DNA of 64,000 bases from Candidatus Eisenbacteria bacterium (lineage in GTDB: Bacteria; Eisenbacteria; RBG-16-71-46; CAIMUX01; JAHJDP01). The translations under genes were made by a program, and so were the position numbers. The notes beneath the pieces are model-generated. The model made no database searches and had not been told where the DNA came from. It saw only the letters and a program-made list of their open reading frames with translations. This document shows positions 10,221 to 34,204 of the stretch, piece after piece; position 1 is the stretch's first letter, and every line of letters starts with the position of its first letter. The DNA is taken from positions 1 through 64,000 of the forward strand of contig JAHJDP010000095.1 of assembly GCA_018831195.1 (NCBI GenBank), in the 5' to 3' direction.

Positions 10221-10234
10221 TTTTTCTCTCCACT

Positions 10235-10798
10235 TTAATAACAATACACGGACCGAGTTGCCCAAAGGAGCTCCACAGTCCCACCTGACTTATTTGATAA
10301 GATGATCCTATCCCTCGTGCAGGCATGGAGTCCCATGCCCGTTGTGAGCTGGCGTCCATCACCATCCACCCAAGCCTGTATCTCTCCGTTTATAACGATG
10401 ATGAGATCCTCTGTTGGAGGAACTTCGCCAGAGAGAATCCCCTCCGCCTTGAGATGGATCCGGTGAAGCTCGAGAGCTGAAAAGGACCAGATTTCACTCA
10501 AGCGCTCCAATGAAGCAAGGCCGTCTGGGGACTCCAGAATCCTCCGGTGGCCCGATGAATGAATGTGAGGGGAATCGAGGGGTGGAAGTTCCAGCAGGCA
10601 GGCTGTCGAAACTTGAAGGGCTTGCGCCAGCCGGTCGAGCAACTGTACCGTCGGTGCCGTTCTGGCTCGTTCGATCTCAGAAATGTGTGTGGCGCTGATA
10701 CCGGAGATCTGCTCCACATCCTTGAGCACGAAACCGCGGGCTTCCCGAATCCGCCGGAGCTTCTGGCCCAAGAGACGACACATGGTTTTCGCCATCAT
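10235..10798 (-). CDS. XRE-family regulator with C-terminal cupin domain (proximal copy)
   Basis: 187 aa. The helix-turn-helix spans about residues 10-65 (GQKLRRIREARGFVLKDVE, then ISATHISEIERARTAPTVQL). The C-terminal half (about 105-180) resembles a cupin fold, with LIIVINGEIQAWVDGDG and a terminal beta-rich segment. The ribosome site AGGGAG precedes the ATG pair. It shares architecture with the next gene downstream, but the two are clearly diverged and not a recent duplication. The agmatinase stop is 71 bp upstream on the same strand. Control of polyamine or agmatine metabolism is an inference from context and from PuuR-like architecture. Confidence 0.85.
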   Translation of the reverse strand: MMAKTMCRLLGQKLRRIREARGFVLKDVEQISGISATHISEIERARTAPTVQLLDRLAQALQVSTACLLELPPLDSPHIHSSGHRRILESPDGLASLERLSEIWSFSALELHRIHLKAEGILSGEVPPTEDLIIVINGEIQAWVDGDGRQLTTGMGLHACTRDRIILSNKSGGTVELLWATRSVYCY

Positions 10799-10869
10799 GA
10801 ATCTCCCTTATCACCTTCATGAAATCACAGTACCGGAGTTCATTGAGTTGTTGATTTGGTCAGCTTTTT

Positions 10870-11757
10870 TTAGGGAGGAGATTTGATCCCCCAGCAGTAG
10901 ATAAAGGCCTTTGCCATGAGCCGGGCTGTAACATAATCTGCGGCGTGCGCGCCAGCTCTCGGACTGTGTTCCATAAAATCTAATCCGATGACGGTCCGGG
11001 TACGGCCGACGTGCCTTAAAATCCGAGTGATTTGACGCCAATCCAGCCCTCCCGGTTCCGGGGTCCCCGTCGAGGGAAGCAGTGAGGGGTCCAAGACATC
11101 CAGGTCGCAGGTGATATAAACCGGATCCCCGAGGATATCATCCAGCCGCCTCAGAGAGGCCCCCAAGTCTTCATGGATTTGACGGGCCCAGATGACCCGG
11201 CTCGACTCCAGACATTCCCTCTCTCCACGGCTGAGACTCCGGATCCCGACCTGAATAAAGGGGTAGATCTCCCTCACCCGGGCCATAACGCAAGCGTGGC
11301 TGAGATCCGACCCCTGATATGTTTCCCTTAGATCGGCATGAGCATCCAACTGAAGAACATGAATGTTTACGCCTGCACGCTTATATGCCCGCAACACTCC
11401 GACCGTGAGAGTATGCTCCCCTCCCAGCACCACCAGACGCCGATTTTTTCCCAAGAGCGCATAGCAGGCTTCCTCAACAACAGCCATCATCTGAGCCGGC
11501 CCGCTGACAACCGGCTCAATGGGCGGCAGGGTCGCGATGCTCAAATCGCCCAGATCGGCATCGGTCTCTTCATCATAAGATTCCAGTTGATAGGATGCCT
11601 GAAGGACGGCGCTGGGACCCCACCGAGTCCCGGGTTCATAACTGGTGGTGAGGTCGTAAGGTATTGGTAATATTAGAATTCTGGCTTCTTCAGGAGATAG
11701 GTCGAATCCCGCAAAGGAGGTGAGTCTAGGGCCCGTTTCGAACGACCGAGAGTCCAC
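10870..11757 (-). CDS. speB: Agmatinase-type ureohydrolase
   Basis: 295 aa, normal for the arginase/agmatinase family. The manganese ligands are visible in order: GGEHTLTVG, LDAHADLRETY, SHACVMARV, CDLDVLDPSLLPSTGTPEPGG and DFMEHSPRAG. The PGTGTPEPGG-like segment favours agmatinase (agmatine to putrescine plus urea) over arginase, but formiminoglutamase and guanidinobutyrase share these motifs, so substrate is not certain. No arginine decarboxylase is seen in the window. The two XRE-cupin regulators follow on the same strand. The divergent gap to the 3D-domain gene is 186 bp. Confidence 0.9.
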   Translation of the reverse strand: MDSRSFETGPRLTSFAGFDLSPEEARILILPIPYDLTTSYEPGTRWGPSAVLQASYQLESYDEETDADLGDLSIATLPPIEPVVSGPAQMMAVVEEACYALLGKNRRLVVLGGEHTLTVGVLRAYKRAGVNIHVLQLDAHADLRETYQGSDLSHACVMARVREIYPFIQVGIRSLSRGERECLESSRVIWARQIHEDLGASLRRLDDILGDPVYITCDLDVLDPSLLPSTGTPEPGGLDWRQITRILRHVGRTRTVIGLDFMEHSPRAGAHAADYVTARLMAKAFIYCWGIKSPP

Positions 11758-19448: not shown

Positions 19449-22286
19449 TCAAGGAAGAATGGTTCCAAGGAATCGAATCCAGCGCCGAGCCTGATGTTCC
19501 CGATCATAAAAACGGAAATCTTCGCGCCGCGGTCCTCGAAGCAAATCGCCGCGGATCCAGTCATTATAGAGATTTAACAGGCAGTTCCGGATCGCGACAG
19601 CATCGTCGGGGTGAGCGATATGACAGCCATCTGAGCGTCCTGCCAGATGGGTCGTTGTGCCTGGGGGACACAGCAGCAGAACCGGACGCTCCGCGGCGAG
19701 AACTTCATAGAATTTCCCTGGAGTATGGTGATTAACTCCACCTAACTCACCCTCCAAGACCAGATTGACTGTGCTCTTCCTGAGAAGTCCCACGCTGACC
19801 CGGTGTGGAAGGTACCCCTTGGCATCTATCCGCCCGGCGAGATACCCGCCAGGAGAGAGGTGACTCAAGGCCGGTTCCACGCTGCCGGCTAGACAGAGCC
19901 GGAAACGGGCGGGATCGATCTTGCCCTCTTTCAGAAGATCCTCCAAAACAGTGAACAGGGTTCGTGGATTGCGCCAACTGAAGAATCCTCCGGTATAGGT
20001 CAACGTGAACTGCGAAGAATCTCCATTGGAAGCTGTTATGGCTGGAAAGTCATCACAGTCATAGCCATTGGGGACCCAGAGTCGTGGGATCGATTTCGGA
20101 AGAATCGGATCGAGTTGCCTCAGAACAGCCCGATGAGCCGCCACAACGCCGGAGGCGTGCGAGAGGAGCTTGCGCTCAAGGGTGGGATTCATCCACCGGC
20201 TCAATCCCTTGGGCGTTCTTGGCAGATACGTTTTTGTCCATGGATCTCGGTAGTCGATCACCAAGGGCCGCCCGGAGATGGTGGATAAGAGCCATCCGAC
20301 AATAAGGGGGGTCCAGGGCGGCCCCGTCACCAGAATAAGATCGGGGCGGAACCGCCGGCAAAGAGACCAGCCCCGCCAGAATCCAGTCAGCCCCCAACCC
20401 GCGTAACTATCAGGAAAACTTAGAAAATGGCTCAGCCACTGGATGCCAACGAGAATCCGATTGATAAATGGGATCTTCCGGGCCGGCTTCCATTGCTGTC
20501 GAAGTCGGCGGATGTGCGGCCAAAGACTAGGATCGGGCGCCTCTTCACGCATTAGATCTTTGGGGATTTCCTCCAATAGAGATGAATCTTCCAGAGAGAC
20601 ACCTTTTGAGGCGGCGGAGAGAAGGGCGATTGGAATTCCCTGTCGCATCCAATACTTCACAGTCTTGGCGGATCGTTGAACTCCACCACCCCCCTGCGGG
20701 GGAAAACGGTAAGCTATAAAAAGAATCCGCGGTGGGGACGCATCCTTCCCTGAAGATCGGGTGCCCCTTGGCAACCATCGGTCGAGGAAGCGAGGTTTCA
20801 TCCGGTCGGGTAGCATCTCATCACCGGTGGCAAGTAGTGTTATAAATGTTAAACTGATAAAAACGAAGCTGACGATTCCATCAAGGGCGAGCACGGATAA
20901 TAGATCACCGCCGGGGATCCATTTCATGAGAAAGAGCGAGAAAATGCCGGCCCCGGTCAGAGGTAAGATCCCTACTCCCAGTCCCCGTCGAAGATAATGC
21001 GCGAAGGGGAGATCGATTAGGCGGCAAGCATAGACGGGGAGTATGAAGAAACGGACAATCAGCATCGGAACCGCCGTGCCCAACGCCACACCGTAAAGCC
21101 CCCATGTTTGAACCCACCACAGGCTCAATCCAAGATTCACCACGCCCTCAACCAACGTCAGCCGGGAAAGAAATTTATGCCGGCTTGTGCCATAGAGGAT
21201 GGAAGCAATCGGTGTTTGACTGGAGGAAAACAAATAGGCCGGTAGCAGTAGCAGAAGAACAAATCCCGATTCTTCAAATCCTTCTCCGACCCAAAGGCGG
21301 AAGAGCCTGTTTCCCGATATCGCGAGCAAAAGACAGGTCCACGCGCTGAGCAGAGTCGTTCCACGGGTGCCAAGAATCAACAGACGCTGGAGCTTTGCCT
21401 TCCCGCCTATCGTATCGGTCCGGCTGAAAGCAGGGGTCAGAACACGGGTTACTCCGAGTACCAATCGGGATAGATATTGTAGCGGCCTATTGCCGATATT
21501 AAAGATCGTGATAGCCTGCGGGGGCATGAACGAAGCAATGACGATCGAGTCGGTGTATAACCTCAAGCGATCTCCGGCCTGAGCGAGAAAGGTGTGGATT
21601 CCATAGTTAAATATTTCTCGGATCCTGTGCCGGCGGGCCATTCGAAATGAGATCCGGATACCTGGGACCTTGCGCAGAACCACACCGGCGACACAGATCT
21701 TCTCCACTCCGGTGACGACTAATAGCACCCAGGCCATTGCGACCAAGCCGCCGCCCGAGAGTAGGGCGATGAGGAAAAAGAGATTCCGTATCGTTGCGAA
21801 GGTGATTCCCAAAATGTTCGAGAGATCAAACCTTTCCGCTGCGCTGAGAACACCTTCGAGAAGACGGCCGGGAAAACTAACCGCAAGGGAGGCACCGACA
21901 AGAATGATCAGCATCGGTGTGTCGGGATGCTTGGCCGCGGCGAAACCTTCGACGTTCGGGAGGATAAGGGCGAGCAGGGCGCTGATGACGAGAGCGGCGA
22001 TACCGGTGCCTGTATAGAGGGCGAAGGCGGTATTGAGCGTCTCATTCGCCATGCGGATGTCTTTGAGAGCCAGATCACGGGAAACATAGCGGACAACCGC
22101 CGAGCGGACGCCAAGATCGAGAAGACCATAATAGCCCACAAGAGAATGAATCAAGAGCCAGATTCCATAATTGCCCTTTCCCAGAAACTTAATAAAGAGG
22201 GGGGTCATAACGAGCCCCAAGAAAACCCCCCAAACCAGGTGAACCCAGTTTGATGCAACGTTTTTGAGAAAAGCCTTACGTTTCAT
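19449..22286 (-). CDS. Fusion of polysaccharide flippase (Wzx-like) and glycosyltransferase
   Basis: 945 aa in one uninterrupted frame. Residues about 1-490 are an integral membrane flippase of the polysaccharide-transport/MATE type with about 12-14 hydrophobic segments (it starts VHLVWGVFLGLVMTPLFIKF). Residues about 520-945 are a GT-B glycosyltransferase resembling GT4. That half starts RILFIAYRFPPQGGGGVQRS, has DYRDPWTKTYLP and GVVAAHRAVLRQL, and a donor-site region LTYTGGFFSWRNPRTL with a late PGKFYEVLAAERPVLLL. Sugar specificity is unknown. Separate flippases are about 450-500 aa and GT4 enzymes about 400 aa, so both parts look whole. The ribosome site is AGGA, 5 nt before the ATG. It is the first gene of the minus-strand run that continues into dapE. 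Confidence 0.9.
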   Translation of the reverse strand: MKRKAFLKNVASNWVHLVWGVFLGLVMTPLFIKFLGKGNYGIWLLIHSLVGYYGLLDLGVRSAVVRYVSRDLALKDIRMANETLNTAFALYTGTGIAALVISALLALILPNVEGFAAAKHPDTPMLIILVGASLAVSFPGRLLEGVLSAAERFDLSNILGITFATIRNLFFLIALLSGGGLVAMAWVLLVVTGVEKICVAGVVLRKVPGIRISFRMARRHRIREIFNYGIHTFLAQAGDRLRLYTDSIVIASFMPPQAITIFNIGNRPLQYLSRLVLGVTRVLTPAFSRTDTIGGKAKLQRLLILGTRGTTLLSAWTCLLLAISGNRLFRLWVGEGFEESGFVLLLLLPAYLFSSSQTPIASILYGTSRHKFLSRLTLVEGVVNLGLSLWWVQTWGLYGVALGTAVPMLIVRFFILPVYACRLIDLPFAHYLRRGLGVGILPLTGAGIFSLFLMKWIPGGDLLSVLALDGIVSFVFISLTFITLLATGDEMLPDRMKPRFLDRWLPRGTRSSGKDASPPRILFIAYRFPPQGGGGVQRSAKTVKYWMRQGIPIALLSAASKGVSLEDSSLLEEIPKDLMREEAPDPSLWPHIRRLRQQWKPARKIPFINRILVGIQWLSHFLSFPDSYAGWGLTGFWRGWSLCRRFRPDLILVTGPPWTPLIVGWLLSTISGRPLVIDYRDPWTKTYLPRTPKGLSRWMNPTLERKLLSHASGVVAAHRAVLRQLDPILPKSIPRLWVPNGYDCDDFPAITASNGDSSQFTLTYTGGFFSWRNPRTLFTVLEDLLKEGKIDPARFRLCLAGSVEPALSHLSPGGYLAGRIDAKGYLPHRVSVGLLRKSTVNLVLEGELGGVNHHTPGKFYEVLAAERPVLLLCPPGTTTHLAGRSDGCHIAHPDDAVAIRNCLLNLYNDWIRGDLLRGPRREDFRFYDREHQARRWIRFLGTILP

Positions 22287-23022: not shown

Positions 23023-24255
23023 ATGTTTGAGAGTCGACTCAAACTTCCGTCCACAGTCGCCTTTATTCTTGCCGGGGGACGCGTGGGTGAGTTATCCGTA
23101 TTGACGCTCTCACGCCCGATGGCCGCCGTCCCCTTCGGGGGTATTTACCGCATCATCGATTTCGCCCTCTCCAATCTGATGCATGCCGGGGTTTCGCAGA
23201 TTGGAATCATCCCTCAATACCTGCCGTCCTCCCTCATCGATCATGTGGGTATCGGCGCAAATTGGGATCTCACCGGTCCGGGCCGAGGTGCAAAAATCCT
23301 CCCGCCCCACCTTGGTCCGAATGCATCACACTGGTATGAAGGTGGCGCCGATGCCGTGCGTCAGAACCTTAATTATGTTAAAGACATTGATCCCGAATTG
23401 GTTCTGATCATTTCCGGCGATCATGTCTATCAGATGGATTACAGGCGTTTGATCGAGTTTCATCTCGAACATGATTCTGATGTTACAATCGCTTTTCGGC
23501 CGATGGGATCACAAACCGATCGCCGCTTCGGTTACGGAGTTTTAGGCTCGGACGGGCGGCTTGAAGATTATCAAGAGAAGCCCCATGTTCTTCCCTCAGA
23601 CCTTGCCAGCCTGACCGTCTATCTTTTCCGGCGTTCCGTCCTTGAAAAGGTTCTGGAAGAGGCACCGCCCGGTGAGCAGACCTTTGGACAACATGTTCTT
23701 CCCCGGATGCTGGGGACCTATAGAATGTATGGCTGGATGTTCCAGGGGTACTGGGGCTATTGTCGGACACCCTCGGCCTACTTTCGATCCAATATGGATG
23801 TTTTGAGTGGTATTGCCGATCCGGAAGCCTGGCAAATCAGGACCAACCTCTATGATCAGGGCTTGGGAAAAATGCCGCCGGTCTCCATTAATGCCTCGGC
23901 CAAGATCCAAAACAGCCTTGTTTCACCCGGATGCGTTATCAGCGGCGAGGTTCAAGATTCCATACTCAGCCCGGGGGTCTGTATTGAGAAAGGGGCCTTG
24001 GTAAACAACTGCCTTCTCTTTCACAATACAGTTGTGATGTCCGGCGCCGTCATCCATACATCCATCATCGATAAAAAGAGTCTCATCGAGCCCAACGCAG
24101 AAATCGGTGCACCCCTGCCGGCCATGGAGAGGCTGAGGGATAAAGACCTGGTTATTCTCGGAAAAGACGCCATTGTGGAGAAAGGCGTCAGGCTGCCGCC
24201 GGGTGAGAGAATGGCCGGCGGGCCGCACATGAAAAAGAAAGCCACAGAGAAATGA
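23023..24255 (+). CDS. GlgC-like nucleotidyltransferase with degenerate N-terminal signature
   Basis: 410 aa, resembling glucose-1-phosphate adenylyltransferase: a Rossmann nucleotidyltransferase domain (about 10-265) followed by a left-handed beta-helix (about 290-375). Conserved parts include FGGIYRIIDFALSN, SGDHVYQMDY with the catalytic aspartate, and YQEKPHVL. However, the usual GxGxRLxxLT..RAKPAVPF signature reads GGRVGELSVLTLSRPMAAVPF, so the arginine and the AKP lysine of the nucleotide site are missing. This suggests a regulatory or GlgD-like subunit partnered with the next gene, which keeps the signature. It overlaps that gene by 4 nt. AAAGGAGG 10 nt before the ATG makes the start secure. 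Confidence 0.85.
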   Translation: MFESRLKLPSTVAFILAGGRVGELSVLTLSRPMAAVPFGGIYRIIDFALSNLMHAGVSQIGIIPQYLPSSLIDHVGIGANWDLTGPGRGAKILPPHLGPNASHWYEGGADAVRQNLNYVKDIDPELVLIISGDHVYQMDYRRLIEFHLEHDSDVTIAFRPMGSQTDRRFGYGVLGSDGRLEDYQEKPHVLPSDLASLTVYLFRRSVLEKVLEEAPPGEQTFGQHVLPRMLGTYRMYGWMFQGYWGYCRTPSAYFRSNMDVLSGIADPEAWQIRTNLYDQGLGKMPPVSINASAKIQNSLVSPGCVISGEVQDSILSPGVCIEKGALVNNCLLFHNTVVMSGAVIHTSIIDKKSLIEPNAEIGAPLPAMERLRDKDLVILGKDAIVEKGVRLPPGERMAGGPHMKKKATEK

Positions 24256-25577
24256 GCGCGACTGAGAAGCAAAGATCCAATTGGCGGACGGTCGATGTCC
24301 GGGATACATTGGCACTTCTCCTGGCCGGTGGTGTTGGAAGCCGTCTCAATGTCTTGGTTCGCCGGAGGGCTAAACCGGCGGTTCCTTTCGGGGGCATTTA
24401 TCGAATTGTAGATTTTACATTATCGAATATTCAGAAATCCGGAATCGAGCGTGTGGGTATACTGACTCAATATTTGCCCTACAGCCTCAGCGATCATGTG
24501 GGACGCGGCGAGGCCTGGGGGCTCACAGGGCGTCATCGTGAGGCCCGGATACTACCACCGCATACCGGCACCAGCCATTCGGATTGGTATAAGGGAACCG
24601 CAGACGCCGTTTATCGAAATCTATCCTACATCCGTCGTCACAATCCCTCCCTTGTTGTCATTGTATCCGGGGATCACATCTATTCCATGGATTACACGCC
24701 GATGCTCGAGTATCACCTCGACCGCGGAGCCGCCGCGACCTTGGCTATCCAGAAATTCCCGCTCGAGGAATGCTCTTCTTTCGGCACGGTGCTTCTAAAC
24801 GATGACATGTCGGTGCGGGGATTCGATGAAAAACCGGCCGTACCCAGAAGCCCCTGGATATCGCTTGGCATCTATGTCTTCCGCAGGGATATCTTGGAAG
24901 CCCGATTGGAAGAAGTGACCGGCGCCGGCGGTGGTGTCGATTTTGCCCGGCACATCTTTGCCAATATGCTGGAACGGGGAGACCGTCTTATCGCCTATCC
25001 ATTTCAGGATTATTGGCAGGATGTGGGAACCCTGCAGGCCTATTTCGACGCCCACATGGATCTTATCAGCGATCGCCCCAGAATCGATCTCGCCAAATGG
25101 GGCGTCCGGACAAACCTGGAAGCAAAACGCTACGGCGATAGAGGGCCGGCCTACTGCGCCTCCACCGCAGACATCCACCGCGTGCGTATCGGCCGGGGCT
25201 CCCGGATTTATGGGCAAGTCGAATCATCCGTCCTCTCCTCCGGTGTCGTCATTGAGGATGGCGCCGAGGTCAAAGAGTGCGTTATTTTCCATGACACGCG
25301 CATCGGACAGGGCGCAAAGCTTCACCGGGTTATTATCGACAAAAACGTCACGGTGGGGCGGAGAGCACAGATCGGTTGTGACATCGGCAGAGACCAATCC
25401 AATGTTAAATATCCGGATCAACTGAATTCAGGCCTCACCGTCATCGGCAAAGGGGCCGTTATCCCACCGGAAATGAGTATCGGGAAGAATGTCTGTATCG
25501 GCCCGGAGATGGATTTGACATCCCTGGACCGAGAGACCCTTGAAAACGGAGAGACAATAGAAGAAAAAGAGGGCTGA
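24252..25577 (+). CDS. glgC: Glucose-1-phosphate adenylyltransferase (GlgC)
   Basis: 441 aa. It has the complete signature LLLAGGVGSRLNVL..RRAKPAVPFGG, then IYRIVDFTLSN, the catalytic SGDHIYSMDY and FDEKPAVPRSP. A C-terminal beta-helix of hexapeptide repeats spans about 300-400. It would make ADP-glucose from ATP and glucose-1-phosphate for glycogen synthesis, possibly as a heteromer with the degenerate paralogue upstream (ATGA overlap). No glycogen synthase or branching enzyme is present in the window, so other nucleotide-sugar roles are possible. The next gene, a symporter, begins 1 bp after its stop. Confidence 0.9.
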   Translation: MSATEKQRSNWRTVDVRDTLALLLAGGVGSRLNVLVRRRAKPAVPFGGIYRIVDFTLSNIQKSGIERVGILTQYLPYSLSDHVGRGEAWGLTGRHREARILPPHTGTSHSDWYKGTADAVYRNLSYIRRHNPSLVVIVSGDHIYSMDYTPMLEYHLDRGAAATLAIQKFPLEECSSFGTVLLNDDMSVRGFDEKPAVPRSPWISLGIYVFRRDILEARLEEVTGAGGGVDFARHIFANMLERGDRLIAYPFQDYWQDVGTLQAYFDAHMDLISDRPRIDLAKWGVRTNLEAKRYGDRGPAYCASTADIHRVRIGRGSRIYGQVESSVLSSGVVIEDGAEVKECVIFHDTRIGQGAKLHRVIIDKNVTVGRRAQIGCDIGRDQSNVKYPDQLNSGLTVIGKGAVIPPEMSIGKNVCIGPEMDLTSLDRETLENGETIEEKEG

Positions 25578-25578
25578 T

Positions 25579-26826
25579 ATGCCTGGTCAACGATGGCTCC
25601 TACCCGCAATGTTGGTTGGTATTATTCTTGGAGCCATTGGGGGATGGTACTTCGGTCCTCAGATGGTTTCACTCGCCTGGCTCGGCCAAATTTTTCTCGA
25701 TGCCCTCAAGATGCTTATCGTTCCACTTATTATCACCTCAATGATCACGGGGATTTCTCAACTCGGTGATATCCGCAAGGTCGGCCGTACCGGTGGTACG
25801 GTTCTCATTTACTATTTCGCGACGACCGGTTTGGCCGTCCTGCTGGGCATCATTCTCGTTAACATCATTCAACCCGGGCATGTGGGCGAATGGGCCGGCG
25901 GCGAAGTTCCCGAAGCCGTCCGGGGCAAAGAGGGCATGGGTTTGGTTGTGATTCTACGGAGTTTCATTTCTCCGAACATTGTACAATCAATGGTGAATAT
26001 GGATATTCTCCCGCTCATTATTTTCTCACTCTTTTTCGGCGCGCTCTTGACAACGATTGAGGCGCAGAAACGGGACACCGTGATCAGCTTCTTCGATGGA
26101 GCCAATCAGGCCATCATGAAGATGGTTCATCTCATCATGTGGCTTGCGCCGATCGGGGTCTTCAGCCTTATCGGCTCCCGGCTGGGTGAAGCGGGAGGAG
26201 GATCGGGTTTCCTCACGGAATTTTCAAGACTCGGGCGGTACTCTCTCACCGTTATCGTCGGACTTCTTATTCATGGTGGCATCGTACTTCCCCTGATTCT
26301 CTACTTTTTCGCAAAGCGCAATCCCTTCCACTACTTTATCGGCATGGCCCGGGCCTTGAGCACGGCATTCTCCACGGCGTCAAGTTCCGCCACCCTTCCG
26401 GTCACCTTGGATTGCACAGAATTAAACAATCGCGTTTCCCGCCGATCATCCCTCTTCGTGTTACCGATCGGAGCCACGATAAATATGGACGGAACCGCCC
26501 TCTATGAATCGGTCGCCGCCATTTTTATCGCACAGGCCACCGGTCACCACCTTGGATTCGGCGAGCAAGCGATCATTTTTGTAACGGCGACACTTGCCGC
26601 TGTAGGCGCCGCCGGCATTCCACAGGCAGGATTGGTTACCATGGTGATTGTGTTGCGCGCCGTCGGTCTCCCCCTTGAAGGGATCGGTATGATCCTCGCG
26701 ATCGATTGGTTCTTGGACCGGTGCCGGACAACCGTCAACGTCTGGGGGGATGCCGTGGGCGCGGCCGTGGTGGATCATTTGGAGCCGACGCCGCTTCCGG
26801 AGGGTTCATCCCCGCCACAGTGTTAA
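25579..26826 (+). CDS. Dicarboxylate/amino acid:cation symporter (DAACS family)
   Basis: 415 aa inner-membrane transporter of the GltP/DctA type. Visible hallmarks are the first hairpin ALKMLIVPLIITSMITGI, the serine-rich reentrant loop STASSSATLPVTLDC, and NMDGTALYESVAAIFIAQ with the NMDGT cation site. A second reentrant GIPQAGLVTMVIVL and a terminal DRCRTTVNVWGDAVGA follow. Substrates in the family are glutamate, aspartate or C4-dicarboxylates taken up with sodium or protons; which one applies here is not decidable. It lies 1 bp after glgC and 11 bp before the next gene, inside the operon. Confidence 0.93.
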   Translation: MPGQRWLLPAMLVGIILGAIGGWYFGPQMVSLAWLGQIFLDALKMLIVPLIITSMITGISQLGDIRKVGRTGGTVLIYYFATTGLAVLLGIILVNIIQPGHVGEWAGGEVPEAVRGKEGMGLVVILRSFISPNIVQSMVNMDILPLIIFSLFFGALLTTIEAQKRDTVISFFDGANQAIMKMVHLIMWLAPIGVFSLIGSRLGEAGGGSGFLTEFSRLGRYSLTVIVGLLIHGGIVLPLILYFFAKRNPFHYFIGMARALSTAFSTASSSATLPVTLDCTELNNRVSRRSSLFVLPIGATINMDGTALYESVAAIFIAQATGHHLGFGEQAIIFVTATLAAVGAAGIPQAGLVTMVIVLRAVGLPLEGIGMILAIDWFLDRCRTTVNVWGDAVGAAVVDHLEPTPLPEGSSPPQC

Positions 26827-26837
26827 AGGAGATTTCC

Positions 26838-28049
26838 ATGGAGAGGAAAAGGTTCCGGCTCCCAGACGGACCGCATCGGCAGATGAGATCCCGGGGATCC
26901 TTATCGAAACCCCGGTTCTTTATCATTCTCGGACTGGCCGGATGGCTTTGGTTGCAAGCCGCGGCGGCCTTGGATCCTCCTGTCCTCACATCGATTGAAG
27001 ACCGTCCGAATGATGCCGGGACAGGCCTCATCCTGCATTGGAGCCCAAGCACTGAAGATAATCCAACCCTCCAAATCATCTTTGAGCGGCGCCATGCGGA
27101 TGGAGTACTGGATACCCTCGAGGCCATCCCCGGTGTCGATCCAAGAGCCGGTGGGGAAATTCCAAGTTCCACAATCGATGAACGGGGTCTGGAACCGGGA
27201 CAGATGGTTAGTTATCGGATGGGCTGGTTTGAGGGGGAAGACACCCTTTGGTCAGCCTGGAGTGATCCGATCGCGCCACAAATTCAATGGGTCAACGGGG
27301 AACGCGCCTCAGTTGCTGTGGCGTTGGTTCTCTTTGCCGGTATTCTCATCTGGTTTGTCTTGAGCGCGCGCAGGGGACGCACCTTCTTTATCCGGAAGAT
27401 ACCCGGTCTGGAGGCGGTAGAGGAAGCGGTCGGCCGGGCGACCGAGATGGGGCGCCCTATTCTCTACTCCCCCGGCCTTGATCCGATGGATGAGGTTGCG
27501 ACGGTGGCCTCGATTAACATTCTCGGCCAAGTGGCTCGCAAGGCGGCCGAGTATGACACGCGCCTCATGGTGCCGAACCGCGACCCGATCGTCATGGCCG
27601 TGGCGCAAGAAGTGGTCAGGGACGCCTATACGGAAGCCGGCAGACCGGATGCATACAATGCCGATGATATCTATTACACCACATACAGCCAATTCGGATA
27701 TGCCGCCGCCGTATGCGGAACGATGATGCGGGAGAAACCGGCCACAAATTTCTTCATCGGCCGGTTTTATGCGGAGAGCCTTATCCTGGCCGAAACGGGC
27801 AACGCAACCGGTGCCATTCAGATCGCGGGCACTGATGCGGATGCCCAGCTGCCCTTTTTTATCACCTCGTGTGATTATACATTGATCGGGGAGGAACTCT
27901 ACGCGGGTAGTGTTTATCTTTCCCGCGAGCCCCTTCTGCTGGGAGCATTAAAAGGACAAGACGCGGCGAAGGCTCTTATCATCATTATCATTATCATTTT
28001 CAGTCTTCTTCAAATCTTTGGTATCGATCTCAGACGCTTTCTGGGATAG
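26838..28049 (+). CDS. Membrane protein with FnIII-like domain and conserved cytoplasmic domain (cassette gene A)
   Basis: 403 aa from ATG 26838, preceded by AAAGGAGA. A signal-like segment (about 25-43) leads to a fibronectin-III-like domain (about 45-150: LDPPVLTSIEDRP, then YRMGWFEGEDTLWSAWSDP). A membrane segment follows at about 155-175. The large domain (about 180-375) holds YSPGLDPMDEVATVASINIL, LMVPNRDPIVMAVAQEVV, YYTTYSQFGYAAAVCG, FIGRFYAESLILAETG and TDADAQLPFFITSCDYTLIG. A final hydrophobic helix with seven consecutive isoleucines ends the protein. The large domain resembles what I remember as DUF6754; no activity is known to me. It is the first of four tightly spaced membrane genes downstream of the symporter. 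Confidence 0.75.
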   Translation: MERKRFRLPDGPHRQMRSRGSLSKPRFFIILGLAGWLWLQAAAALDPPVLTSIEDRPNDAGTGLILHWSPSTEDNPTLQIIFERRHADGVLDTLEAIPGVDPRAGGEIPSSTIDERGLEPGQMVSYRMGWFEGEDTLWSAWSDPIAPQIQWVNGERASVAVALVLFAGILIWFVLSARRGRTFFIRKIPGLEAVEEAVGRATEMGRPILYSPGLDPMDEVATVASINILGQVARKAAEYDTRLMVPNRDPIVMAVAQEVVRDAYTEAGRPDAYNADDIYYTTYSQFGYAAAVCGTMMREKPATNFFIGRFYAESLILAETGNATGAIQIAGTDADAQLPFFITSCDYTLIGEELYAGSVYLSREPLLLGALKGQDAAKALIIIIIIIFSLLQIFGIDLRRFLG

Positions 28050-28100
28050 AAATTATCGGTCTTTGATTTTTGGCACGGCCATAATGGAGAGCGGAACAGA

Positions 28101-28742
28101 ATGAAACGCACCGGACCCGTCATCTTTGGTTTTCTTATTGGAATGGTTATGCTCCTGCAATATTTCAGCCCCCACCCAACTCTTCTCAGCACCTACAATC
28201 TTATCTTGGATTGGAAACAGGTCGTCTTCGGAATGACATTGATACTCGGAATTGTGAGTCTTGTTCGTTTTCACAGTACAAAAATCCGGAGAAAACAAGA
28301 CGGATGGTTGTACAGCATCGTGACATTGGCCGGGTTGGTCGCGATGAGCGGCTCATCGCTTGTCTGGGGAACCGAGCGTGGTTTTTATCCTTGGGCATTT
28401 GATAATATCCAAGCCCCGATGCAGGCCACCATGTTCGCCCTGCTCGCCTTCTACGTCGCCTCAGCATCGTACCGGGCTTTCCGGGTTCGGTCACTGCATG
28501 CCGGTTTGCTTCTGTTGGCTGGTGTCATCGTCATGCTGGGGCGCGTCCCGTTGGGCGAGCTCATCGGTATCACCATCAAGGGACAACACTACGCCCTCCC
28601 ACAGCTCTCGACCTGGATCCTTGATGTTCCCAACCTCGCCGCCAAGCGGGGAATCCTGATCGGCGTCGGATTGGGCATGGTCGCCACCGCTCTGAAAATT
28701 CTGCTGGGGATTGAGCGGAGTTACTTGGGGAAAGGAGCCTGA
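28101..28742 (+). CDS. Six-helix membrane protein of unknown function (cassette gene B)
   Basis: 213 aa with about six hydrophobic helices: VIFGFLIGMVMLLQYF, VVFGMTLILGIVSLVRF, YSIVTLAGLVAMSGSSLVWG, MQATMFALLAFYVASASY, GLLLLAGVIVMLGRVPLG and LIGVGLGMVATALKILLG. The loops are short and basic on one face. I do not recognise the family. It starts 51 bp after gene A and ends 1 bp before gene C's ATG. The membrane topology and packing suggest a subunit of a complex with A, C and D. Confidence 0.7.
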   Translation: MKRTGPVIFGFLIGMVMLLQYFSPHPTLLSTYNLILDWKQVVFGMTLILGIVSLVRFHSTKIRRKQDGWLYSIVTLAGLVAMSGSSLVWGTERGFYPWAFDNIQAPMQATMFALLAFYVASASYRAFRVRSLHAGLLLLAGVIVMLGRVPLGELIGITIKGQHYALPQLSTWILDVPNLAAKRGILIGVGLGMVATALKILLGIERSYLGKGA

Positions 28743-28743
28743 T

Positions 28744-29604
28744 ATGCGTGAACTGGATACATCAGCTCCGATCGCCAAGCGCACCATTTGGACCCGGCTT
28801 ATGGCGGTGGATCGCAGAATTATCTTTTTGGCGGTGGCTTTGTCTGTCGCCCTCCCCCTGATCTATCCCATCGGTCTCCCCGTTAAAACAGCGAACGAAA
28901 GCCGTGCCTACTTCAAGGAAATGGATCAGCTCAATGCCGGAGATGTCATCATGTTCAGCTTTGATTATGAGCCGGATACGATGGCGGAACTCGACCCGAT
29001 GAGTTTGACAACCTGGCGGCATGCTTTTCGGAAGGATCTCAAAATCATCGCGTTGACGATGTACGCCGGTGGAACAGGAGTCGCCGAACGGATCATGCGC
29101 CAAGTGGCTGGAGAGTACGGTAAAGTCTATGGGGAGGATTATATCTTCCTCGGTTACAACCCCGATTGGTCGGGCACCATGCTTCGGCTGGGGGAATCGA
29201 TCAAAGCAACCTATCCAACCGATCAATACGGCACCCCATCCGAGTCATTTCCCATTCTTCAACATGTCGACAGATACGGGCACATTAAGTTGCTCGTTTC
29301 AGTATCGGCCAGCGCCCTCTCGGAATACTGGGCCATCTGGGCTGGCGGAAAGTACGGTCAGCGGATGATTTCCGGAAATACGGCGGTGCAGGCCGTTCTC
29401 ATCTACCCGTACTTCCAGACAGATCAAATCTCCGGATTTTTGGGCGGATTGAAAGGGGCCGCGGAATATGAGTCTTTGGTGGGTATCAAGGGCGAAGGGA
29501 CAAGAGGTATGGATGCCCAATCGACCGCGCATGCCCTCATGGTTCTGTTCATTCTTCTCGGAAATGTTGGCTACGTCATGAATCGGAGGAGGCGGACTCA
29601 ATGA
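28744..29604 (+). CDS. Membrane-anchored protein with one large soluble domain (cassette gene C)
   Basis: 286 aa from ATG 28744, preceded by AAAGGAG. One N-terminal membrane helix (about 20-45, IIFLAVALSVALPLIYPI) and one near the C-terminus (ALMVLFILLGNVGYVM) enclose a soluble domain of about 210 residues. That domain has NAGDVIMFSFDYEPDTMAEL, YGEDYIFLGYNPDWSGTMLR, LSEYWAIWAGGKYG and AVLIYPYFQTDQISGFLGGL. It was not recognised as a known family. Two end helices with a long interior domain suggest an extracytoplasmic or cytoplasmic module held at both ends. It overlaps gene D by 4 nt (ATGA), so the two are probably translationally coupled. Confidence 0.7.
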   Translation: MRELDTSAPIAKRTIWTRLMAVDRRIIFLAVALSVALPLIYPIGLPVKTANESRAYFKEMDQLNAGDVIMFSFDYEPDTMAELDPMSLTTWRHAFRKDLKIIALTMYAGGTGVAERIMRQVAGEYGKVYGEDYIFLGYNPDWSGTMLRLGESIKATYPTDQYGTPSESFPILQHVDRYGHIKLLVSVSASALSEYWAIWAGGKYGQRMISGNTAVQAVLIYPYFQTDQISGFLGGLKGAAEYESLVGIKGEGTRGMDAQSTAHALMVLFILLGNVGYVMNRRRRTQ

Positions 29605-30224
29605 GCGTCGACCCGGGAGTTTGGATCGCGGCCATACTGACCCTGGCTATATTCTCTTTTTTGTACAAGGACAATCCCGTCTACAAATTCGCCGAACATC
29701 TTCTGGTCGGAGTTTCAGCCGGATACTATCTGACACAATACACCTTTTCGGCGGTTTATAAAAAACTCATCGTTCCGGTCTTTTTGAACGGAGAGTGGAT
29801 TTTAATCTTTGGCGGCCTTCTCGGTCTATTGATGTTTTTCAGGATGAACCGCAAAACGGAATGGATCAGCCGGTACGCTATCGCCTTCTATGTCGTCGCC
29901 TGGTCCGGTTATGTCATCCCCTCCATTCTTCAGGCCCGCGTACTGGTTCAAGCTCAGGGCACCATTCCGGTCACCACCGGCTCAATCTTCTCGATTATCA
30001 ATGCATGGCTCATCATGATCGGCGTACTTTGTATACTGATCTACTTCTACTTCAGTATGGAACATAAAGGCGTTCTGTTGCCGGTATCGCAGGTAGGAAT
30101 CTTTTTTTTGATGCTAGGTTTCGGAGCCAGTTTCGGTTATACAATTATGGGCCGGATCACGCTTCTCATCGGCAGATTCCAATTTTTGATGGGAGACTGG
30201 CTGGGTATTATCGAGAAGCTTTAA
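29601..30224 (+). CDS. Six-helix membrane protein of unknown function (cassette gene D)
   Basis: 207 aa with about six hydrophobic helices: VWIAAILTLAIFSFLY, LLVGVSAGYYLTQYTF, WILIFGGLLGLLMFF, YAIAFYVVAWSGYVIPSIL, SIINAWLIMIGVLCILIYF and VGIFFLMLGFGASFGYTIM. The family is not recognised. Its size and helix count are close to gene B but I see no clear sequence similarity between them. It is the last gene of the operon; a strong hairpin terminator follows at 30290-30326. Confidence 0.7.
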   Translation: MSVDPGVWIAAILTLAIFSFLYKDNPVYKFAEHLLVGVSAGYYLTQYTFSAVYKKLIVPVFLNGEWILIFGGLLGLLMFFRMNRKTEWISRYAIAFYVVAWSGYVIPSILQARVLVQAQGTIPVTTGSIFSIINAWLIMIGVLCILIYFYFSMEHKGVLLPVSQVGIFFLMLGFGASFGYTIMGRITLLIGRFQFLMGDWLGIIEKL

Positions 30225-30289
30225 GGCCGATGGCATCCAGAGAGGCGCGGTGATACGCCAAATGCCCTCTTTGTCATGCCGTGAGACCC

Positions 30290-30326
30290 AAAAAGCCCGG
30301 CGGCCGTACCGGCCGCCGGGCTTTTT
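30290..30326. terminator. Bidirectional rho-independent terminator
   Basis: AAAAAGCCCGGCGGCCG (30290-30306) pairs perfectly over 17 bp with the complementary arm at 30310-30326 around the loop TAC, ending in a T5 run on either strand. It lies between the converging seven-gene operon and the M14 carboxypeptidase gene. Confidence 0.95.
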
Positions 30327-30379
30327 GTTCAACCTCGATGCAATTTCCAATACGCGATAGAGGCCGCGCCCTTCGTTCT

Positions 30380-33523: not shown

Positions 33524-34204
33524 ATGCGCCAAATAATTTGCGGACTCATCATCATTGGATGTGTTTTCGTGAGCTCCAGTGCCTCCGCCGGGTTTACCAC
33601 ATGGTTCCCTTCGCCAAATGAACCGGATCTCGACGAGATCCTTGACAACCTCTATGGTTTGTCAAACGTGGTGCGGGTTGCCGATACGGGTGGGCTCACA
33701 GACCAGATCTGGTTTAACAGCAATGCCGCGGTCAGTGTCGAGGCCAAATTCTCCTCTCGGGACCACACCTTCGGCTATTACCAGGGGCTGACCGGTTGGA
33801 GCTTCAATCCGCTCTTCACGGTCTCCGGCTCGGGGTATCTGTCGGGTGTAACGGGCGGCTTCACCCCAGCGCAATCTGGGAATCCCTTCCGGTTCGCCGA
33901 TAAGACCGGCTGGGTGCCGGCATGGAGTTCACTGGAATTGCAGAACCTCGATTTCATGGATCACATGGTTACCTACCAGATCACCGGCGATGACCCGACA
34001 AAATCAAATACGGTCGGAAGTTATGTCCTCGCTTGGGAAGACGGCTCCTGGTTCGGTGACCGTGACTACAATGATCTCATCGTCGAGGTCAGCGGGGTTG
34101 GGCTCGGGGGATGCAGCCCTGTACCTGAACCGGCGACACTCACTCTTTTGGGAATGGGGCTCGTTGGTTTTACCGGATGGAGCCTCAGGAGACGGAAGAA
34201 GTAG
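33524..34204 (+). CDS. PEP-CTERM secreted protein with DUF4114-like domain (copy 1)
   Basis: 226 aa. A signal peptide (1-22, ending SSASA) is followed by GFTTWFPSPNEPDLDEILDN. A beta-rich body ends in SYVLAWEDGSWFGDRDYNDL, the aspartate-rich motif typical of DUF4114. The last 25 residues are a PEP-CTERM sorting signal: VPEPATLTLLGMGLVGF, then SLRRRKK. In the PEP-CTERM system an exosortase/EpsH-type enzyme processes such proteins during export to the surface or matrix. No exosortase gene lies in this window. It is about half identical by eye to the protein encoded 308 bp downstream and ends at a strong terminator. Confidence 0.88.
   Translation: MRQIICGLIIIGCVFVSSSASAGFTTWFPSPNEPDLDEILDNLYGLSNVVRVADTGGLTDQIWFNSNAAVSVEAKFSSRDHTFGYYQGLTGWSFNPLFTVSGSGYLSGVTGGFTPAQSGNPFRFADKTGWVPAWSSLELQNLDFMDHMVTYQITGDDPTKSNTVGSYVLAWEDGSWFGDRDYNDLIVEVSGVGLGGCSPVPEPATLTLLGMGLVGFTGWSLRRRKK

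Follow-up and report, generated by a model that had tools for sequence, protein, structure and literature searches.

Within a 64,000-nucleotide stretch of the genome of a Candidatus Eisenbacteria bacterium (assembly GCA_018831195.1, contig JAHJDP010000095.1, positions 1 to 64,000; hereafter the window), four consecutive plus-strand genes, which we call A, B, C and D, encode membrane proteins and constitute one inherited module that has been duplicated into diverged paralogues located beside different metabolic genes. Gene A (26838..28049, 403 aa) encodes a signal or anchor helix, a fibronectin type III (FnIII) domain, a transmembrane (TM) helix, a DUF6754 domain and a C-terminal TM helix. Genes B (28101..28742, 213 aa) and D (29601..30224, 207 aa) each encode a protein with about six TM helices, and gene C (28744..29604, 286 aa) encodes a Rossmann-like domain of the order (beta-alpha)6 between two TM helices. 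A is separated from B by 51 bp and B from C by 1 bp, and C and D overlap by 4 nt. Upstream, on the same strand, lie the GlgC-like genes glgC1 (23023..24255) and glgC2 (24252..25577), which overlap by 4 nt, and a gene for an SDF-family (dicarboxylate/amino acid:cation) symporter (25579..26826; Pfam SDF, E 7e-124), which begins 1 bp after glgC2 and ends 11 bp before A. A first-pass annotation, made from the sequence alone, had proposed that A-D are a membrane complex at the end of this operon, and all of its coordinates and spacings for these genes were reproduced.

The genome that contains the window (5.2 Mb in 123 contigs) has six DUF6754 genes and six C genes, all of them within A-B-C-D cassettes (6/6, the sixth C gene having been read by translating the gap between genes), and its C genes are found in cassettes only. 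The proteins of the other five loci share 34-56% identity with those of the window. A scan of a genome collection yielded more than 511 loci, of which the 80 best-scoring were named (loci here carry numbers with L); they were located via gene A, so that an occasional B, C or D gene on its own in another place may have escaped notice, and all data derive from metagenome-assembled genomes. About a dozen phyla supplied 111 DUF6754 genes that have 3 kb or more of sequence behind them, and 106 of these lead into B, C and D, in that order and on the same strand; homologues of A-D are therefore not scattered singly, the pattern that the first-pass annotation had named as evidence against a single complex. 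Lineages with the cassette comprise WOR-3/Stahlbacteria, Latescibacterota, Eisenbacteria, Edwardsbacteria, Poribacteria, Fermentibacteria, Cloacimonadota, Zixiibacteriota, TA06, Hyd24-12, CSSED10-310, Brocadiales/Planctomycetota and Nitrospirae, and cassettes often occur in double or triple tandem arrays (ABCDABCDABCD). Most paralogous cassettes sit away from glgC. Since A-D recur at five further places in the window's genome and throughout related phyla, their layout is not due to chance.

The pairwise distances of the four subunits are correlated as well (r 0.68-0.82; the highest value under permutation was 0.09), a correlation to which genome relatedness contributes. Of 47 genomes from the window's phylum, 45 contain DUF6754, as does every high-quality one (26/26), with between one and seven copies each; the 14 well-known genomes taken as controls have none. 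From this genomic evidence we infer that the four proteins form a single inner-membrane complex, in which C and the soluble part of A would be the working domains. The DUF6754 genes that do not lead into B-C-D are for the most part solo A genes in Fermentibacteria and WOR-3. Stand-alone A genes encoding FnIII and DUF6754 were seen at L043 (17055-18218), L063 (9938-11107), L088 (9947-11113) and, less certainly owing to little downstream sequence, L024 (9947-11026). In Fermentibacteria the solo A comes after a GNAT-like gene, which hints that different A subunits may be exchanged on a common BCD core.

Gene A belongs to the DUF6754 family over its full length (PF20539; 392.4 bits against a cut-off of 27, E 1e-117), the domain and the TM helices on both of its sides spanning 27279..28028, so that the family name given in the first-pass annotation was correct. 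The FnIII-like domain seen there was likewise borne out: residues ~46-140 (26973..27257) match titin FnIII in profile comparison (E 8e-18), FnIII structures in Foldseek and the strands of the AlphaFold model. It is absent from gene A of some paralogues, for example at L016 and L018. The AlphaFold model of A, built from our own alignment, is confident (pLDDT 90) and shares with the model of C the order TM-alpha-(beta-alpha)6-TM. Foldseek matches of the whole protein are dominated by FnIII, and the DUF6754 fold is hardly probed by that comparison. By charge distribution and the positive-inside rule the alpha/beta (DUF6754) domain is predicted to be cytoplasmic, and the FnIII arm would be periplasmic. 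Residues R200, E203, R298, E313, Q337, E352 and E353 are invariant. A test of whether conservation is concentrated along one Rossmann ligand crest did not support this: strong conservation extends over the entire domain, as would be the case for a subunit buried in a larger assembly. A plasmid origin was considered as well and rejected, there being no match to gene A. The Pfam entry describes a domain of unknown function and is silent on B, C, D, the cassette, its paralogues and its operons, and no paper naming DUF6754 was found in the literature collection searched.

No convincing family was found for B, C or D in Pfam and NCBIfam with the window proteins, in Pfam with 59-75 homologues of each, in PDB profiles or in PADLOC; matches to DUF4149 and DUF3623 are isolated and confined to one or two B homologues. 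PADLOC gave no match for A-D that would indicate anti-phage defence. A known transporter or secretion complex, a match to which would have argued against the first-pass interpretation, was sought in Pfam, NCBIfam, PDB and PADLOC and not found: the membrane subunits of the window gave no above-cut-off match in Pfam or NCBIfam, and PDB sequence searches gave none. B is predicted to have both termini in the cytoplasm (N-in/C-in). The AlphaFold model of C, again from our own alignment, reaches a pLDDT of 95, and the charge distribution and positive-inside rule suggest that its Rossmann-like domain is periplasmic, which would place the alpha/beta domains of A and C on opposite sides of the membrane. 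For C, Foldseek against the PDB returned no more than partial Rossmann-type matches (TM-score ~0.3, to dehydrogenase and GT-B domains), and no solved structure matched the model of A or of C globally. Acidic residues D74, E82, D132 and E243 are invariant in C; in D the invariant residues are S19, N25, E32, G37 and Q117, the polar ones lying within a membrane protein. Profile comparison of A with C revealed no significant homology, and we therefore do not claim an ancient duplication; the same holds for B and D, between which no similarity was detected.

The reading that we prefer, at a probability of roughly 0.35, is that A-D form a transmembrane transport or gating complex whose paralogues are specialised for different pathways. 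B and D, with about 12 TM helices between them, would form the membrane core; A would put its Rossmann-like domain into the cytoplasm and its FnIII arm into the periplasm, and C would put a second Rossmann-like domain into the periplasm. Binding of a ligand to A and/or C would then control whether a small metabolite or ion can pass B/D, and the paralogues would each have become specialised for the pathway of their neighbours, namely ADP-glucose/glycogen in the window copy and glycine/C1 in the ancestral copy described below. What the substrate is, and that there is a transport step at all, are guesses. Several observations weigh against this reading. The Pfam and NCBIfam searches linked A-D to no transporter or channel family, the cassette lacks both an energising ATPase and any known coupling residue, and its recurring neighbours are metabolic enzymes, not substrate-specific transport genes. 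A few A genes lack B-C-D altogether. Finally, the domain of A is conserved on all faces without a single ligand crest, a pattern that an assembly core would explain no less well than a ligand-binding switch.

The same structural features could be taken as those of a membrane-bound enzyme, in which the domains of A and/or C would act catalytically on a substrate in the membrane or periplasm and B/D would hold a lipid-linked or hydrophobic one. The Rossmann-like topology, the weak likeness of C to dehydrogenase and GT-B domains, the invariant acidic, Arg and Gln residues of A and the acidic residues of C are consistent with this, but TM-scores that low, the lack of a GxGxxG or known cofactor motif and the failure of conservation to cluster on one face make it unlikely.

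The window copy is one of ten members of a clade with 100% support in the SH-like approximate likelihood ratio test (SH-aLRT). Two GlgC-like genes lie directly upstream of the cassette in eight of the ten, or in 8/9 with a readable upstream region, L020 and L138 among these eight being the same locus twice; of the remaining two members, one begins at a contig edge and one has no match upstream. For the taxonomic order of the window, the idea that the link to glgC is an accident is thus rejected. The symporter stands between the GlgC pair and A in five of the eight and is absent in L020/L138 and L139. Because it is missing from some orthologous loci, we consider the symporter optional and the GlgC pair the conserved partner, so that the question of a link to ADP-glucose or to transport, raised in the first-pass annotation, has a partial answer: the pair is kept upstream of orthologues, and the symporter is not essential.

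Both genes of the pair were assigned with Pfam (NTP_transferase and hexapeptide matches for glgC1) and aligned together with a pair from WOR-3. In this alignment the catalytic motif is lost from glgC1 (RVGEL...RPMAAV; degenerate active site LAGGRVGELSVLTLSRPMAAVPFGG) and kept in glgC2 (GSRL...RAKPAV, within LAGGVGSRL...RAKPAVPFGG). They are the only GlgC-like genes of the genome. GlgC2 is a probable catalytic ADP-glucose pyrophosphorylase and GlgC1 is probably non-catalytic or regulatory, like GlgD. Neither reaches the NCBIfam cut-off for GlgC (TIGR02091, 424.9; 288.6 for glgC1 and 353.9 for glgC2) or for GlgD (TIGR02092, 236.6; 197.9 and 184.8). The combination of an intact and a degenerate protein resembles the Firmicutes-type GlgC/GlgD hetero-oligomer, but the window pair falls below these curated cut-offs and is tied to a membrane cassette. 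We know of no GlgC/GlgD locus that is linked to one.

WOR-3 genomes have an orthologous intact/degenerate GlgC pair at 3.3-3.9 kb from cassettes of another ABCD subfamily, a proximity that is no more than suggestive of a tie. By eye, DUF4388/PATAN-like, roadblock-like and ExbB/ExbD/TonB-like genes are found 2-8 kb downstream of ABCD at five WOR-3 loci (L038, L050, L065, L092 and L098), in three of which the GlgC pair is divergent upstream. Such neighbours, together with the FnIII arm, could point to a complex for signal transduction or envelope assembly, whose paralogues would work with different envelope partners and whose operon neighbours would be incidental. We consider this improbable, as the DUF4388/ExbB synteny is confined to one clade and the neighbours are metabolic in most lineages.

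Away from glgC, the commonest place for a paralogous cassette is behind a glycine-cleavage/MutL operon. In the single-cassette family of the phylum the order is gcvT-(gcvH)-gcvPA-gcvPB-145aa-126aa-MutL-HAYTPG-A-B-C-D, where HAYTPG is our label for a ~380-aa protein with the first residues MAHAYTPGL. The window's genome has this arrangement, with gcvH, for its copy on contig C28 (L018, 7290-18551, minus strand), and the operon, with or without ABCD at its end, is also found at L142-L147, L150 and L153. HAYTPG adjoins DUF6754 in 17 of the 18 HAYTPG-bearing genomes of the single-cassette family; in the taxonomic order of the window, gcv-MutL-HAYTPG is mostly retained without an adjacent cassette. 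Overall, HAYTPG occurs in 43/47 genomes of the phylum and in 24/25 genomes reached via other loci, and it co-occurs with the cassette in all 26 high-quality genomes of the phylum. Cassettes linked to MutL/HAYTPG are spread over many separate branches of the DUF6754 tree. The breadth of this context and the genomes with a single copy suggest that it is ancestral. Other neighbours are lineage-specific, such as SerA in Fermentibacteria and AroB in Poribacteria.

The MutL protein of the gcv operon is a MutL/GlmL-family (PF13941) ASKHA ATPase whose scores fall short of the equivalog cut-offs for GlmL and Or-4. It shares its family with the GlmL/MutL proteins of B12-mutase operons, but in the cassette context it sits with glycine cleavage and ABCD and not with a B12 mutase. 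A literature search found no paper on a link between GlmL and glycine cleavage.

The metabolic neighbours speak for the main rival to transport or gating, which we rank first among the alternatives: a membrane scaffold or regulator, with the membrane enzyme next in order. Such a scaffold would anchor or allosterically control pathway-entry enzymes (the GlgC pair, glycine decarboxylase, SerA, AroB) without transport, DUF6754 serving as a cytoplasmic docking face and the periplasmic FnIII and C parts sensing the envelope. GlgC is the regulated step of glycogen synthesis, the GlgC pair, GcvP, SerA and AroB are soluble pathway enzymes, and the whole-surface conservation of A's domain would suit a docking role. 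However, B and D appear to be more than anchors, being polytopic with invariant polar residues in the membrane, and the neighbouring enzymes vary among paralogues although A's domain remains ~45-55% identical, so that there is no single docking partner. On balance we regard a scaffold as doubtful, if less so than an enzyme.

The barrel-sandwich domain of HAYTPG is related to RnfC_N/NqrA_N. The free form gives weak RnfC_N matches, and an 865-aa fusion of MutL with a HAYTPG/NqrA_N-like domain (L168, 3151-5748, minus strand, contig C119 of the window's genome) passes the NQRA_N cut-off. Long open frames like that of the fusion are present in other genomes. The HAYTPG motif GATQIRAGV is strictly conserved (residues 293-304 of the L018 protein, 10230-11405, minus strand) and bears a superficial resemblance to the S(T)GAT flavinylation motif of NqrC/RnfG; no match of HAYTPG to FMN_bind was noted. 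The relationship of HAYTPG raises the prospect of an Rnf/Nqr-like ion pump, with this protein as the NqrA/RnfC-like peripheral subunit on an ABCD core driven by the redox chemistry of glycine oxidation, and the ~six TM helices each of B and D recall NqrD/NqrE. In contrast to Rnf/Nqr, A-D have no homology to any of the subunits and no Fe-S or flavin signature: Pfam gave no match to PF02508 (RnfA/E-NqrD/E), RnfD/NqrB or FMN_bind among the window proteins or alignment members, and the alignments of B, C and D contain no invariant or nearly invariant Cys, hence no invariant pairs for Fe-S. Most cassettes, including that of the window, also lack an NqrA-like neighbour. Because the cassette has neither Rnf/Nqr homology nor invariant cysteines, we consider a redox ion pump very unlikely.

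The cassette of the window ends at a strong terminator, as previously described: an intrinsic, bidirectional hairpin at 30289..30327, not assigned to either strand (folding energy -38 kcal/mol, z -6.7), with 18 bp without mismatch bordered by A- and U-tracts. As it is symmetric, it probably also stops the convergent gene for an M14 peptidase. Elsewhere in the window, a 945-aa open reading frame (19449-22286, minus strand) encodes a polysaccharide flippase (Polysacc_synt) fused to a family-4 type glycosyltransferase domain, and a secreted protein with DUF4114 and a PEP-CTERM tail (33524-34204, plus strand) suggests an exosortase sorting system in the host.

Of the four cassette proteins, three are without a family entry and one belongs to a DUF, and yet the module has been kept intact and multiplied in about a dozen phyla and is present in all high-quality genomes tested of the window's phylum; it must therefore serve an important role. 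As a tentative proposal, which we hold with a little less conviction than transport or gating as such, the cassette may be a previously undescribed machine in which two Rossmann-like domains across a 12-TM core, with paralogues forming hetero-oligomers, would couple the periplasm to the entry points of glycine cleavage and ADP-glucose synthesis in much of uncultured bacterial diversity. The two conserved operon ties, one to the GlgC pair and the other to glycine cleavage with MutL and the NqrA/RnfC-like protein, provide handles for testing its function.

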